This document shows positions 27,748 to 54,357 of a stretch of DNA of 64,000 nt, in pieces (the first letter of the stretch is position 1; each line of letters begins with the position of its first letter). Where the stretch lies: assembly GCA_026129335.1 (NCBI GenBank), contig JAHCIH010000001.1:156678-220677 (forward strand), given 5' to 3'. This stretch comes from Anaerolineales bacterium (GTDB lineage Bacteria > Chloroflexota > Anaerolineae > Anaerolineales > UBA11579). The notes below the pieces were generated by a model. It was not told where the DNA came from, made no database searches, and saw nothing but the letters and a program-made list of their open reading frames with translations. Position numbers and translations under genes: made by a program.

Positions 27748-27804
27748 CAATCTAGAAGATTGCTTCGTCGGCCTGGCTCTCGCCAGGCACTCCTCGCAAT
27801 GACG
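27748..27804. repeat. Family B repeat, partial
   Basis: Contains the element's internal CAATCT-AGATTGCTTCG palindrome and the terminal CTCCTCGCAATGACG arm, but the left arm CGTCATTGCGAGG is missing. It lies 34 bases before the clpC start. Confidence 0.75.
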
Positions 27805-47393: not shown

Positions 47394-47512
47394 CGTCATT
47401 GCGAGGAAGCCCGGCGTTAGCCAGGGCTGACGAAGCAATCTAAGCGTTGATTTGTGCACCGAGATTGCTTCGTCGCTTCGCTGGCTGCGGCGCTCCTCTC
47501 CTCGCAATGACG
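47394..47512. repeat. Family B repeat, full length
   Basis: 119 bases bounded by CGTCATTGCGAGG and CCTCGCAATGACG, with CGAAGCAATCT and AGATTGCTTCG inside, separated by a short variable centre. It is a nested palindrome. Confidence 0.85.
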
Positions 47513-47611: not shown

Positions 47612-48571
47612 CTATGCGAAGACAGGCTCGTCGGCGAACGCGTCCACCAGGGCGGTGAAGTCACCGGGCGTCTCACTGGTCAACAGTTGCTGGCGCTGCT
47701 CGGTGCTCAGGCGGAAGGGGCTGATGTAGCGGCTGGCGTGCTTGCGGAAGAGCACCAGGCCGCGCTCCGCGCCGTAAAAATCCAACATCGCGTCCAAGTG
47801 GGCCAGCATGGTCTCGCGCACCTGCTCGGCGGGCACATCCTCGCGGTCCAGGCCGGCGAAGATCCACGGGTTGCCAATCGCGGCGCGGCCGATCATCACC
47901 GCGTCGCAGCCGGTGAAGCGGCGCATGCGGGCGATGTCGGCGACGCTGCGCACATCCCCGTTGCCGATCACCGGGATGCTCAACGCGGCCTTCACCTCGG
48001 CGATGGCCTCCCAGTTCGCCTCGCCCTTGTAGGCTTGCTTTTTGGTGCGCCCGTGCACGGCCAGCAGCTGGCCGCCGTTGTCCTGCACAATGCGGGCGAT
48101 CTCCAGGTAGTTGAGGTTGTCCTCGTCCCAGCCCAGGCGCATTTTGCCGGTAACCGGAATGTCCAATTCCCGGCTCAGGCTGCTGAAGATCTGCGCCACC
48201 TTGGCCGGCTGGCGCAGCAGGCCGGCGCCAGCCCCGCGGCCGGCCACCGTCTTGGCTGAGCAGCCCATATTGACGTCGATGATGTCCGGGTTGCGTTCAC
48301 GCAGGCGCAGCGCCGCCTCCAGCAGGCGGGCCGGATCGTCGTCGAAGAGCTGGAAGGTGATCGGGCGCTCGCCTTGGCTGTAGGTCAGGCGGCGCTCCAG
48401 CGCCGGATGAACGTTGACCACGTCGATGGCGTTGACGAATTCGGTATAGCTCATCGCCGAGCCCAGGCGGCGGGCCATGGCGCGGAAAGGCAGGTCCGAG
48501 AAGCCGTCCATTGGCGAGAGGATCGCTTCGCCGTAGACGGGCAGGTTGCCGATGTGGAAGGTGGGTTCCAT
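47612..48571 (-). CDS. tRNA-dihydrouridine synthase
   Basis: 319 residues. FMN-dependent reduction of uridines in the D-loop of tRNA. Signatures: SPMDGFSDLPFRAMAR near 20, ITFQLFDDDP near 71, DVNMGCSAKTVAGRGAGAGLL near 98 with the catalytic Cys and GAGL loop, and VHGRTKKQAYKG near 170. The DusB/DusC-type length fits. The start lies 10 bases after the stop of the DUF3307 gene, and a TAGAAT element that overlaps the stop codon ends 7 bases before the ATG. Confidence 0.93.
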   Translation of the reverse strand: MEPTFHIGNLPVYGEAILSPMDGFSDLPFRAMARRLGSAMSYTEFVNAIDVVNVHPALERRLTYSQGERPITFQLFDDDPARLLEAALRLRERNPDIIDVNMGCSAKTVAGRGAGAGLLRQPAKVAQIFSSLSRELDIPVTGKMRLGWDEDNLNYLEIARIVQDNGGQLLAVHGRTKKQAYKGEANWEAIAEVKAALSIPVIGNGDVRSVADIARMRRFTGCDAVMIGRAAIGNPWIFAGLDREDVPAEQVRETMLAHLDAMLDFYGAERGLVLFRKHASRYISPFRLSTEQRQQLLTSETPGDFTALVDAFADEPVFA

Positions 48572-48584
48572 CGCCCCTATTCTA
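48572..48584 (-). promoter_or_regulatory. -10 element abutting the dus start
   Basis: TAGAAT at 48584..48579 is followed by AGGGGCG and the ATG; the gap is 7 bases. It overlaps the stop codon of the upstream gene. Confidence 0.35.
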
Positions 48585-48920
48585 ACCAGCCGCCAGCAGG
48601 GCCACCAGCGCCAGCAAAATTAGGTGAGCGGCCTGGTCTTGCCACAGTTCAAAGGCCGGTTCGTAGGCGCCCAGCTTCTGCGCGAACAAAGCGCGCAGCC
48701 AGATCAATGGCTTGCGCGTATCGATCAGTAGGTGCGAAATGCCCAGCGCCAGGGCGGCGTTTGCCGGCAGCACCAGCAGGTAGCCCAGGGTGTGGATGCC
48801 GCTGTGCACCCAGGCGGCCGGGTGGTACAGGCTGGTTTTGTGCTGCGCCATCCAGTCGCTCTGCAGGAACCAGTCGGCGGCCAGATGCACGATCAGACCC
48901 TTGAGGAACAGCTCGCTCAT
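48582..48920 (-). CDS. DUF3307 membrane protein
   Basis: 112 residues with three or four hydrophobic segments. HLAADWFLQSDWMAQHKTS near residue 12 and SHLLIDTRKP near 62 are the conserved motifs of DUF3307. Its function is unknown. Its start overlaps the end of the kinase gene by 4 bases, which ties it to the cyclase/kinase operon. Confidence 0.8.
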   Translation of the reverse strand: MSELFLKGLIVHLAADWFLQSDWMAQHKTSLYHPAAWVHSGIHTLGYLLVLPANAALALGISHLLIDTRKPLIWLRALFAQKLGAYEPAFELWQDQAAHLILLALVALLAAG

Positions 48921-50305
48921 CGCCGCGCCCCACTGGCGGGCAGCCAGACTTCGAAGCGCGTGCCACCCGGCTCTGAGGACAGTAGGATGTCCCCGCCGTG
49001 CTTGTGGACGACGACGTTGTAGCTGATGTTCAGGCCCAACCCACTGCCTTGGCCGGGCGGCTTGGTAGTAAAGAAAGCGTCGAAGACCCTGGGCTGGATA
49101 GCTTCGGGAATCCCCGGGCCGTTGTCCTCAAAGGCGACCACCGCCCAGTCGCCCTCGAGGCGGGTTTCGATCTCGATCTCGCCTTGGCCGTCCATGGCGG
49201 CGATGGCGTTGTCGAGAATGTTGGTCCACACCTGGTTGAGTTCGCTGCCGTAACCCTGGATGGCCGGCAGGTCCGGCGCGTAACGGCGTTTCACATTCAC
49301 CCCGCCGCGCAGTTTGCTGCCCAGGATCAGCAGCGTGTCCTCGATGCCGGCATGCAGGTCCACCGCCTGCACAGGCGCCTGGTCCAGATAGGTGTAGGAT
49401 TTGAGCGCCCCGACGATGGCGGAGACCCGCCGAGCGCCGGCGCCGATCTCGGCCAGCAGGGCATGGGCGGCGTAGCTGGCGCCCAGCCAGGCAAGCACCG
49501 CGGCCAACTCCTGCGGCGCGAACTGTGCGGCCAGCTCATCCAGCGTCGCGGGCGTATAACCCAGGTCAGCCAACTGGCCCGCGCCGCCGGTGGGCAGGCC
49601 ACGCCCATGCAGCCCGGCCTCCAACGCGGCCATGCGGTCGCTGCGTTCCAGCGCGTCCAGGCCCGCCGGGGCAGTGGCCCGCGCCTGCGCTTCGGCGTGC
49701 AATGCTTCGGCGCGGGCGGCTTTCTCTTTGGGCATGGCCAAACCATCCAGCGCGCTGCGCGCGGCCAATAAAGCGGCCAGGCTGCTTTGCAGCTGCTCGG
49801 CGCCGCGCTGGATGGCCGCGGCGGGGTTGTTCAGTTCGTGGGCCACGCCGGCGGTCAGCGTGCCCAGCTGGGCGAGGTTTTCGCTTTGCTGCATCGCCGC
49901 CTGGGTCCCGCGCAAGCGGGCCAGCATCTCGCGAAACATGGCGTGCAGCAAGGTGCGGCTGCTGGAGAGCAATTCATCGAAAGATCGCTTGGGGATGGCC
50001 AGCAGCACGCTGTCGCTGTGCGCTTTTACGCTGGCCATGCGCGGTGCCTCGTCGAAGAGGGCCACTTCACCAATCAGCTCGCCGGGGCCACGCAGCGCCA
50101 GCAGCATTTCACGGCCCGCCGAGGCCTTGAGCACCTCCAGACGGCCGCTTTGGATCACATAGGCTTCGCCGCCTGCATCGCCCTCGCGGAAAAGCATCTC
50201 CCCCGCGGCGAGCCTGACTTCGCTGAGCATATCCGCCAGACCTTGCAGGTCTTTTTCGTCCAGGCCCGCGAACAGCGATATCTGCCTGAGTGCGTCCAGC
50301 CTCAT
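48917..50305 (-). CDS. Histidine kinase with N-terminal cyclic-nucleotide-binding domain
   Basis: 462 residues. Residues 5-120 form a CNB domain with GELIGEVALFDEAPRMASV near 92, which matches the phosphate-binding cassette including the Arg that contacts the cyclic phosphate. Then a helical region with the H-box TAGVAHELNNPAAA near 150, and the HATPase domain with ELNQVWTNILDNAIAAMDG (N-box), FEDNGPGIP and GSGLGLNISYNVV (G boxes). No membrane segment. Its start overlaps the receiver-flavoreductase stop (ATGA-type). It would phosphorylate a receiver in response to cAMP or cGMP. Confidence 0.88.
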   Translation of the reverse strand: MRLDALRQISLFAGLDEKDLQGLADMLSEVRLAAGEMLFREGDAGGEAYVIQSGRLEVLKASAGREMLLALRGPGELIGEVALFDEAPRMASVKAHSDSVLLAIPKRSFDELLSSSRTLLHAMFREMLARLRGTQAAMQQSENLAQLGTLTAGVAHELNNPAAAIQRGAEQLQSSLAALLAARSALDGLAMPKEKAARAEALHAEAQARATAPAGLDALERSDRMAALEAGLHGRGLPTGGAGQLADLGYTPATLDELAAQFAPQELAAVLAWLGASYAAHALLAEIGAGARRVSAIVGALKSYTYLDQAPVQAVDLHAGIEDTLLILGSKLRGGVNVKRRYAPDLPAIQGYGSELNQVWTNILDNAIAAMDGQGEIEIETRLEGDWAVVAFEDNGPGIPEAIQPRVFDAFFTTKPPGQGSGLGLNISYNVVVHKHGGDILLSSEPGGTRFEVWLPASGARR

Positions 50306-51960
50306 ACCGTCCTGAGGTATTGGTGCACTAGGCTCACGGCGATGCCGCCCTGGCCCACCGCCGAGCCCACCCGGCGGATGGCCGCGTGGCGCACATCCCC
50401 GGCGGCGAAGATGCCCGGCACCGAGGTTTCCAATAGATAGGGGTCGCGCTCCAACGGCCAGCTTTTCGGCCAGGCGCCGTTTTGCAGCAAGTCGCTGCCG
50501 GTCAAAATGAAGCCCTGCGAGTTGCGCTCCACCAGGCCGGCGACCATCTCGGTATGCGCTTCAGCGCCGATAAAGATGAACAAGGCGGCCGCGGGCAGGG
50601 AGCGCACTTTGCCGCTTTCCACATCCTTCACCCGGATTTTTTCCAGGCGGCCGGTGCCGGCGACGCCTTCCACCTGGCTGTTGGCGAGCACCCGGATGTT
50701 GGGCGCCGCCTTCACCTGCTCGACGAGGTACTGCGACATGCCCTTCAGCATGGGCGCGCGCACCAGGATGGTCACCTGTTTGGCGTATTTGGCCAGGCCG
50801 ATGGCGCCCTGGCCGGCCGAATTGGCCCCGCCGAGCACATAGACGTGCCTGCCTTTGTAGCTCATCGCCTCGGTGACCGCTGCGCCGTAGTACACACCGG
50901 CGCCTTGCAGGTCTCTGACACCCGGAGCGTCCAACTGGCGCAGGGTGACCCCGCTGGCGATGATCAGCGCCAGGCAGCTGAGTTCCTCGCCGTCATCCAG
51001 GGTGAGGATCTTGTAATTGCCCTCGGCGCGCACGGCGCGCACCTCGCGGGCGGTGAGCACTTCGCAGCCCAGACGCACCGCCTGGTCCGTGGCGCGGCGG
51101 GCCAGTTCGCGCCCACTGACGCCGTTGGGGAAGCCGAGGTAGTTTTCGATGCGCGCGCTGGTGCCCGCCTGGCCGCCGGTGGCGCGGCGCTCGATGATCA
51201 GCGTGCGCAGGCCCTCGGAGGAGGCGTATACCGCGGCGCTGAGCCCGGCCGGCCCGCCGCCGATGATGATCAGGTCGTAATGTTCTTCGGAGGCCTGGGT
51301 GCGGATGCCGACCTTCTCGGCCAGGGCGCGCTCCACTGGCGCGACCAGTTGGCTGCCGTCCGGGAAGAAGACCACCGGCAGCCTCCCGCCGGCCTCGGGC
51401 ACAGCTTCCACCAGAAGCCGCGCCTCAGCGTCGTTTTCGACATCCAGCCACTGGTAGCCAATCCGGTTGCGGGCGAGGAAGTCTTTGACTGCGTGGCTGC
51501 TGGCGGACCACAGGGTGCCGGCCACGCGGATGCCGTCGTAGGGCAGCGCCGCCTGGCTCAACCACTCGTCCAGCAGTTCGTCCAGCACCGGGTAGAGGTG
51601 TTCCTCAGGCGGGTGCCAGGGCTTCATCAGGTAATGGTCGAGCCCGATGGTGTTGATGCTGGCAATGGCCACTTCGGTGTCGGCGTAGGCGGTGAGCAGC
51701 ACCTGGCGCGCATCGCCGTAATATTTGCGCGCCTCGGCCAGGAATTCGATCCCGGTGATGCCGGGCATGCGCTGGTCTACCAGGAAGAGGGCGACGGGGT
51801 CGTTGCGCTTTTTCAGCGCTTTGACCAGTTCCAGGGCCTCGGCCCCGGAGCCGGCTTTGAGCACGCGATAGGTCTCGCCGTATTGCGAGAGCAGGTCGCG
51901 CTCGATGGCGTTGAGCACCTGTACTTCATCGTCCAGCGCGAGGATGACCGGCTTCGCCAT
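50302..51960 (-). CDS. Receiver domain fused to thioredoxin-reductase-like flavoprotein
   Basis: 552 residues. Residues 1-125 are a CheY-like receiver with LALDDE, phosphorylatable Asp in FLVDQRMPG, LLTAYADTE and the conserved Lys of LMKPW. A thioredoxin-like region follows at about 145-215 (GTLWSASSHAVKDFLARN). Residues 225-545 are a two-domain FAD/NAD(P)H oxidoreductase (IIIGGGPAGLSAAVYAS and VYVLGGANSAGQGAIGLA). The redox CxxC expected at YCATCDG is replaced by GVYYGAAVTEA, so it is not a thioredoxin reductase in the usual sense. It is coupled to the kinase gene by a 4-base overlap. Confidence 0.88.
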   Translation of the reverse strand: MAKPVILALDDEVQVLNAIERDLLSQYGETYRVLKAGSGAEALELVKALKKRNDPVALFLVDQRMPGITGIEFLAEARKYYGDARQVLLTAYADTEVAIASINTIGLDHYLMKPWHPPEEHLYPVLDELLDEWLSQAALPYDGIRVAGTLWSASSHAVKDFLARNRIGYQWLDVENDAEARLLVEAVPEAGGRLPVVFFPDGSQLVAPVERALAEKVGIRTQASEEHYDLIIIGGGPAGLSAAVYASSEGLRTLIIERRATGGQAGTSARIENYLGFPNGVSGRELARRATDQAVRLGCEVLTAREVRAVRAEGNYKILTLDDGEELSCLALIIASGVTLRQLDAPGVRDLQGAGVYYGAAVTEAMSYKGRHVYVLGGANSAGQGAIGLAKYAKQVTILVRAPMLKGMSQYLVEQVKAAPNIRVLANSQVEGVAGTGRLEKIRVKDVESGKVRSLPAAALFIFIGAEAHTEMVAGLVERNSQGFILTGSDLLQNGAWPKSWPLERDPYLLETSVPGIFAAGDVRHAAIRRVGSAVGQGGIAVSLVHQYLRTV

Positions 51961-51972
51961 GCCTGCTCCGGA

Positions 51973-52821
51973 TCAGTTGGCGTGCTTCCATACCCAGGCG
52001 CCGACCGCCTGGCTCTTGCCTTTGAGCTCCAGGCGGCGTTTCTCCAGCCCGCCGGTGTCCAGGTCGATGTGGGCGGCGATCGTCTCGCTGACCAGGATTT
52101 CGCCGGGACCGGCGGCGGAAGAGAGGCGCGCTGCGGTGTTGGCCGCATCGCCGAGCATGGTGATGTCGGTCATGCCGTCGGGCGTGCCCACCGCGCCGAA
52201 GTAGCTGAGGCCGCTGTGCAAGCCGATGCCCACCGGCACCCAGGGGCCAGCCGGGTCGTTGTGGCCGGTGGCCTGCAGAATCTTCTGGGCGGAGCGCAGC
52301 GCGCTTTGGTGATACTGCGCCCCCGCCAGCCCCGAGACGAAGAAGGCCGCCACCTGGTCGCCAGCCAGCTTGTCGATGAAGGCGCCTTCATCGACAAGCA
52401 CGGCGGTTGCCTCGCGGTAGAAGCGGTTGATCAACTGGCTGAACTCGGCGGGGTTCCTGTTCTCAGCCAGGGCCGTGGAGCCGCGGATATCGGCGAAGAG
52501 CAGCGCCATGTCCACTTCGGCGCTGGCGTTGTTGGCCACGACCATGGTCTCGCATTCATTGCACAAGTTGGGGTTGTAGCGCGATTTGTCTTTCCCGATC
52601 GCGCGCATCAGCGGCGCGCCCGGGCCGCGGAACGGCGCATGGCACCAGATGCAGCGTGGGTCGGAGGGCAGCACCTTGAGCAGGCCTCCCTCCATGGCCA
52701 CCCGCCACTTCAGGTGGGGTGGGGAACGCCGGGCGAGGCCGGGGTATCCCTCGAGCAGCCAAACCCGCAAGACCTCATCGGCGTCCATGTCCCCGAGTAT
52801 TTTTGGCTTTTTCTCGTCCAT
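51973..52821 (-). CDS. Class III adenylyl/guanylyl cyclase with Zn-ribbon-like N-terminus
   Basis: 282 residues from the ATG at 52821, with GGAG 6 bases upstream. Residues 55-95 have two CxxC knuckles (CIWCHAPF and CNECE). Residues 105-280 are a class III cyclase domain: LLFADIRGST with the metal Asp, DKLAGDQVAAFF with the second metal Asp and the adenine-specifying Lys, and LGDAANTAARL with the transition-state Asn and Arg. All catalytic residues I looked for are present, so cAMP is the likely product. It is the first gene of the operon that contains a CNB-domain kinase. Confidence 0.88.
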   Translation of the reverse strand: MDEKKPKILGDMDADEVLRVWLLEGYPGLARRSPPHLKWRVAMEGGLLKVLPSDPRCIWCHAPFRGPGAPLMRAIGKDKSRYNPNLCNECETMVVANNASAEVDMALLFADIRGSTALAENRNPAEFSQLINRFYREATAVLVDEGAFIDKLAGDQVAAFFVSGLAGAQYHQSALRSAQKILQATGHNDPAGPWVPVGIGLHSGLSYFGAVGTPDGMTDITMLGDAANTAARLSSAAGPGEILVSETIAAHIDLDTGGLEKRRLELKGKSQAVGAWVWKHAN

Positions 52822-52955
52822 ACCGATCTCCATAGGCAGCCGGTTGCACGAATCTGGGCCCATTATCTCACCATTTGCCGTGCGGAGCAGGGGCCGAGAA
52901 GCGGGTGAAAGTGACAGTGTATACTGCTCCCATTCCAAAACCCAGGTGAAACTCA

Positions 52956-54221: not shown

Positions 54222-54223
54222 CC

Positions 54224-54343
54224 CGTCATTGCGAGGAGGCCCGGCGTAGCCAGGGCCGACGAAGCAATCTAAGTGTCGGGATTTGTGCACTGAGATTGCT
54301 TCGTCGCTCCGCCGGCTGCGCCGCTCCGCTCCTCGCAATGACG
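54224..54343. repeat. Family B repeat, full length
   Basis: 120 bases bounded by CGTCATTGCGAGGAGG and CTCCTCGCAATGACG with CGAAGCAATCT / AGATTGCTTCG inside. It ends 14 bases before the next gene and just 1 base before its AGGAGA ribosome binding site. Confidence 0.88.
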
Positions 54344-54357
54344 CAGGAGAGATCAAA

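Follow-up and report, generated by a model that had tools for sequence, protein, structure and literature searches.

Gene content and layout of the operon

The stretch of DNA analysed here (hereafter the window; 64,000 nt from an Anaerolineales genome) carries on its minus strand, in order, a class III nucleotidyl cyclase gene (51973-52821; from ORF calling and Pfam), a response regulator in which a receiver (REC) is joined to a thioredoxin reductase (TrxR)-like protein (50302-51960; 552 aa), a histidine kinase with a cyclic nucleotide-binding (CNB) domain (48917-50305; 462 aa), a DUF3307 gene (48582-48920; 112 aa) and dusB, for a tRNA dihydrouridine synthase (47612-48571). Successive spacings from the cyclase to dusB are 12, -4, -4 and +10 nt, the last placing dusB 10 nt past the DUF3307 gene. 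The minus-strand ORFs thus confirm the four-gene order, the 12-nt gap and the two 4-nt overlaps given in a preliminary description of this DNA. The Pfam models Guanylate_cyc, Response_reg, Pyr_redox_2, cNMP_binding, HATPase_c and DUF3307 all scored above their cut-offs, and each gene assignment of the operon is backed by NCBIfam as well as Pfam. A divergent M29 peptidase gene (52956, plus strand) lies upstream. Because a promoter and terminator scan of the operon found neither a sigma-70-like promoter nor a clear terminator, co-transcription is argued from the gene spacing, and dusB is probably co-transcribed with the four genes upstream of it.

The operon cyclase is the single PF00211 match in the host genome, and the operon kinase is the single PF00027 match. 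By comparison, 15 genomes with the kinase and REC-TrxR pair had 3-19 CNB matches each; the host genome is therefore unusual among pair-bearing genomes for its one CNB match, with the qualification that the assembly is 72% complete and others may be missing.

A DUF3307 gene also adjoins the kinase at loci L046 (10346-11023), L064 (13166-13900) and L242. It was seen next to kinases with an intact phosphate-binding cassette (PBC) in at least four genomes, and in genome G103 it lies between kinase and cyclase. We also note a palindromic hairpin of very high stability (-82 kcal/mol, z -10.4) with GTCATTGCGAGGAG ends, REP/MITE-like and repeated in the window; copies at 54222-54345 and 47395-47511 flank the segment holding the operon, and further copies of the hairpin end occur at 27790 and 41607.

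A receiver fused to cysteine-less redox folds

The response regulator consists of a REC domain, then a Cys-less glutaredoxin (Grx)-like domain and then a Cys-less TrxR-like flavoprotein. The receiver's Asp, Thr and Lys residues, described earlier as present, are intact: D10/D11, D62, T90 and K113 are invariant across the 11 aligned sequences, and the predicted phosphoacceptor Asp62 is encoded at 51775-51777 (minus strand) within an invariant DQRMP motif. The Grx-like domain (51301-51534, minus strand) matched TIGR02200 (mycoredoxin) weakly, below the cut-off, and has a beta-alpha-beta-alpha-beta-beta-alpha layout in the structure model. Its active-site Cys is absent (WSxxSH) and a cis-Pro-like LPVVFF is kept; any Cys in the active-site stretch was found in 10 of 136 aligned sequences, and none in the window protein. 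With regard to the TrxR-like FAD/NAD(P)H core (50305-51285, minus strand), YYGAA replaces the CxxC and none of the 136 aligned sequences has a Cys at this site (YYGAA-type residues instead), in agreement with the flavoprotein lacking CxxC that had been proposed.

The regulator scored 239 bits against TIGR01292, where the cut-off is 343, and with the redox CxxC of the NADPH domain missing it falls outside the thioredoxin reductases. An active glutaredoxin or thioredoxin reductase was rejected because both Cys pairs are missing. The protein does belong with REC-TrxR regulators, as phosphorylation residues and a TrxR-like FAD/NAD(P)H domain are fused in it. Full-length relatives are 53-65% identical in other Anaerolineae, and homologues occur in many phyla.

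The kinase and its cyclic nucleotide pocket

The kinase comprises a CNB domain, a DHp hairpin with an insertion and a HATPase domain. Its CNB assignment is based on a PF00027 match of 82 bits and on a phosphate-binding cassette, GEVALFDEAPRMAS, that has the Glu and the Arg expected to contact ribose and cyclic phosphate (50030-50071, minus strand; located by alignment). The H-box reads HELNNP, HATPase_c scored 90 bits, and the H-box and N/G boxes are conserved in the alignment, so that motifs and alignment together bear out the intact cassette, H-box and ATPase boxes reported previously. The HisKA model scored below its cut-off and covered the first DHp helix only. The insertion at the hairpin tip (49517-49741, minus strand; ~75 residues, 189-263) is helical in the structure models, which were of moderate quality (pTM 0.48 and 0.39) and used for secondary-structure layout only. 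It carries a conserved RSDxE..LE.WL motif, matched no Pfam family and may be a family-specific recognition module of these kinases.

The window kinase and its subclade keep the cassette intact, but most other relatives have lost its Arg, among them most of those sampled outside Chloroflexota; on the kinase tree the state of the PBC is nearly clade-confined. At six loci (L060, L072, L184, L246, L248, L251) a REC-like sequence seemingly replaces the CNB domain at the kinase N-terminus. As REC can replace CNB there, the input module appears exchangeable and the CNB domain not essential to the pair. Two kinase homologues (G582:C94:30460-31842 and G637:C13:8099-9478) have one in-frame TAG in the match.

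An old and widespread two-component pair

We searched one draw of 150 class-level genomes for the kinase and for full-length REC-TrxR. Besides the window genome, exactly the same 10 of the 149 others carried both. In a contig scan that yielded 80 REC-TrxR loci, spanning Chloroflexota, Actinomycetota, Cyanobacteria, Acidobacteria, Bacteroidota, Pseudomonadota and others, a kinase match was present on the stored stretch in 65. Co-occurrence and adjacency thus identify the two as a cognate two-component pair, as the preliminary description had assumed, and one that by sequence looks obligate. Since the 65 loci with a kinase match are spread across many phyla, the pair is an old, widespread two-component system, usually without a cyclase.

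It could be argued that the CNB-kinase has a different regulator as its main target, with REC-TrxR serving as a phosphate sink or feeding redox information into the kinase. In 4 of the 10 genomes the two genes are unlinked, and REC-TrxR adjoins a GAF-kinase plus a LuxR-type regulator at L052 and a LuxR-type regulator at L048. However, the perfect co-occurrence, the usual adjacency and the conserved residues of REC chemistry make this very unlikely, and we favor direct signaling from the kinase to REC-TrxR.

Across phyla, the pair is repeatedly accompanied by a small zf-UBP (PF02148-like) gene, at ~17 loci within 250 bp and two more (among them L055:1613-5644, L243, L247, L182, L101, L053, L129, L098, L140, L138, L113, L119 and L211:9137-9487). 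The neighboring cyclase-AAA-TPR protein of G047 carries the domain as a C-terminal fusion. No zf-UBP gene was seen near the window operon.

A putative class IIIb adenylyl cyclase

The cyclase is 282 aa long from the ATG at 52821, which has GGAG just upstream, or 286 aa from an in-frame ATG at 52833, where our residue numbering starts. The catalytic domain (52003-52512, minus strand) contains both metal Asp residues (D115 and D159), K155, T225, N232 and R236. D115, D159, K155, N232 and R236 are invariant in aligned relatives, and the metal Asp pair, adenine-type Lys and Asn/Arg pair noted at the outset therefore stand. The second base-contacting residue aligns with the Thr (D-x-T225) of CyaC and CyaB, not with Asp. 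This Lys/Thr arrangement, with the metal Asp and Asn/Arg transition-state pairs, would place the enzyme as class IIIb-like. An N-terminal putative Zn knuckle, C61-x2-C64 ... C91-x2-C94 (52552-52653, minus strand), is kept in a Chloroflexota relative (G103), a deltaproteobacterial MAG (L082) and Sinorhizobium (S.) meliloti.

A Lys/Thr pair in class III cyclases is of the adenylyl cyclase type, which argues against a variant of our reading in which the wiring is the same and the messenger or direction differs: the cyclase would make cGMP or be regulated downstream (by redox through the Cys knuckle or by bicarbonate through the IIIb site), and the cNMP would inhibit the kinase rather than activate it. 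An intact PBC alone fits cAMP and cGMP equally, the knuckle Cys are conserved, and the Lys/Thr pair recurs in the CyaC and CyaB alignments, all of which leave room for such a variant. Bicarbonate or redox control of this cyclase is nonetheless only putative, and we regard the variant as quite unlikely; production of cAMP is the preferred reading.

Cyclase linkage among relatives

Linkage was defined as a class III cyclase lying no more than 6 kb from the kinase, a limit chosen on a first set of genomes (set 1) and fixed beforehand for a second set of new genomes (set 2). Among PBC-intact kinases, 10 of 34 were linked in set 1 against 1.25 expected (P = 1e-7) and 4 of 20 in set 2 against 0.29 expected (P = 1.6e-4), the expectation being a Poisson estimate from each genome's cyclase count that ignores clustering and shared ancestry. 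Together, 14/54 were linked (~1.5 expected) and about three quarters of the intact kinases had no cyclase within 6 kb, a proportion affected by some short contigs that lower the observed linkage. Of these 14 cyclases, 12 were on the kinase's strand (P = 0.013). With regard to PBC-degenerate kinases, linkage was 0/66 in set 1 (0.64 expected) and 0/12 in set 2, a group in which the cassette rule also placed the PRTAG-cassette kinases L250 and L252 and the truncated kinase L245, none of them linked; this gives 0/78 scored degenerate (0.9 expected). We set these zeros aside as evidence, given a cyclase density so low that only 0.64 was expected in set 1. An 82-aa cyclase fragment in disrupted frames (L065) was left uncounted.

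Linked cyclases vary in type and gene order. The window has the short Zn-knuckle type, G103 and G067 the classic 430-aa type, and G026, G114 and G047 a cyclase-AAA-TPR type, to which, by ORF length, Sphaerobacter, G475 and others also belong. L190 has an intact PBC inside an otherwise degenerate branch, with two flanking cyclases of two further types. Three genomes, G475, Sphaerobacter (L116) and G585, each have a single cyclase, and it lies directly behind the kinase. The same Zn-knuckle linkage was not found in the other sampled Anaerolineae and was seen only in another phylum, at L082, where the cyclase frame starts as the REC-TrxR gene ends, the kinase lying ahead. The kinase was present in 10 of the 14 genomes with a short Zn-knuckle cyclase, compared with 35 of 382 (P = 1e-7).

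On the kinase tree we count 11 changes in linkage, a scatter much like that of shuffled labels (11-14), which, with the differing cyclase types, suggests that linkage was gained or lost repeatedly; a tree-corrected pairs test did not reach significance, the independent pairs being too few. Conserved co-occurrence of all three genes had been suggested as a check on the proposed circuit, and the outcome is divided. The pair co-occurs, in the same 10 genomes; the cyclase is missing from most homologous operons, and the cNMP pocket has been lost by most relatives, yet linkage to PBC-intact kinases exceeds expectation. The cyclase therefore did not belong to the ancestral system, and an original three-gene operon was rejected. 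By sequence, it resembles an exchangeable add-on that a cNMP-binding kinase subfamily may have recruited repeatedly.

The same absences would suit a passenger cyclase, co-transcribed by chance or for shared expression, with the CNB-like domain sensing something else and cAMP acting elsewhere. The pair evidently works without a cNMP where pocket and cyclase are missing, the PBC-degenerate relatives must sense something else, and the incomplete host genome adds to the case. Against it, both genome sets show more linkage than cyclase density predicts, the linked cyclases are of several kinds, the window kinase keeps an intact PBC, and the host genome yielded no second CNB protein. We consider a passenger cyclase unlikely, and cAMP gating of the kinase the better explanation.

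A proposed route from cAMP to a flavoenzyme

We infer, with a probability of roughly 60%, that the operon is a cAMP-gated version of the widespread two-component pair. The sole cyclase and sole CNB protein found in the genome, the excess linkage and the differing cyclases on the tree make cAMP gating of the PBC-intact kinase subfamily likely. The circuit first suggested is partly supported, by the pairing of kinase and REC-TrxR, by the linkage above cyclase density and by the single cyclase and single CNB domain found in this genome; a general presence of the cyclase in homologous operons is not. The class IIIb-like cyclase would make cAMP. Binding of this cAMP in the CNB pocket, which is intact in this soluble kinase, would shift the kinase/phosphatase balance, a step suggested by the cassette and by how often cyclases have been captured beside such kinases. 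Adjacency, perfect co-occurrence and intact motifs suggest that the kinase then phosphorylates Asp62 of the REC-Grx-TrxR protein, which may alter the oligomeric state or activity of its FAD/NAD(P)H core. As the redox CxxC is missing, this core is probably not acting as a thioredoxin reductase and is more plausibly an NAD(P)H-dependent oxidoreductase or diaphorase acting on a partner.

A stronger form, which we offer tentatively and at less than even odds, is a closed circuit that would run from the sole adenylyl cyclase of the cell, of class IIIb type and possibly sensitive to bicarbonate or, via its Cys knuckle, to redox state, through the sole cNMP receptor, a cAMP-gated kinase, to a phosphorylation-controlled NAD(P)H flavoenzyme rather than a transcription factor. 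Bacterial cAMP is known chiefly as the ligand of CRP-type transcription factors. A PBC-intact kinase subfamily that repeatedly acquires cyclases and has a flavoenzyme partner would offer a concrete route from second messenger through phosphorelay to redox metabolism, and sister kinases with intact and lost PBCs are a natural experiment. No description of a cAMP-gated histidine kinase was found in the open-access papers searched, a scope outside which most subscription papers fall, and nothing useful was found there on the exact combination of cyclase, CNB-kinase and REC-TrxR.

Comparison with known systems

By alignment, the class IIIb cyclases Spirulina CyaC and Pseudomonas CyaB share the Lys/Thr pair and metal Asp residues of the window cyclase, which is unlike them in being short and soluble with an N-terminal CxxC...CxxC knuckle. 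In Deinococcus (L209) and Tsukamurella (L211), a histidine kinase annotated only as 'ATP-binding protein' stands beside an 'FAD-dependent oxidoreductase'. Its place in the operon, adjoining a REC-TrxR relative, matches that of the window kinase, and judged by that position it presumably belongs to the same family; most sampled relatives outside Chloroflexota lack the PBC Arg that the window kinase keeps. The Paraburkholderia fusion at L212, annotated as 'cyclic nucleotide-binding domain-containing thioredoxin-disulfide reductase', has the same Grx-TrxR core, also without CxxC, under a CNB-like regulator domain. In contrast to the window system, the CNB domain is fused directly, there is no phosphorelay, and the PBC Arg is missing from the cassette.

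The fusion of REC with a TrxR-like flavoprotein is itself a known architecture, described in the portions of PMC5847659 and PMC9953108 considered here as 'Mycobacterium-like' REC-thioredoxin reductase or TrxB-type regulators, the same fusion as in the window. The Cys-less Grx-like middle domain is absent from those portions of the two accounts. Set against the TrxB-type regulators as they are presented there, what differs at this locus, by sequence, is a partner kinase with an intact cNMP pocket, together with a cyclase in the same operon.
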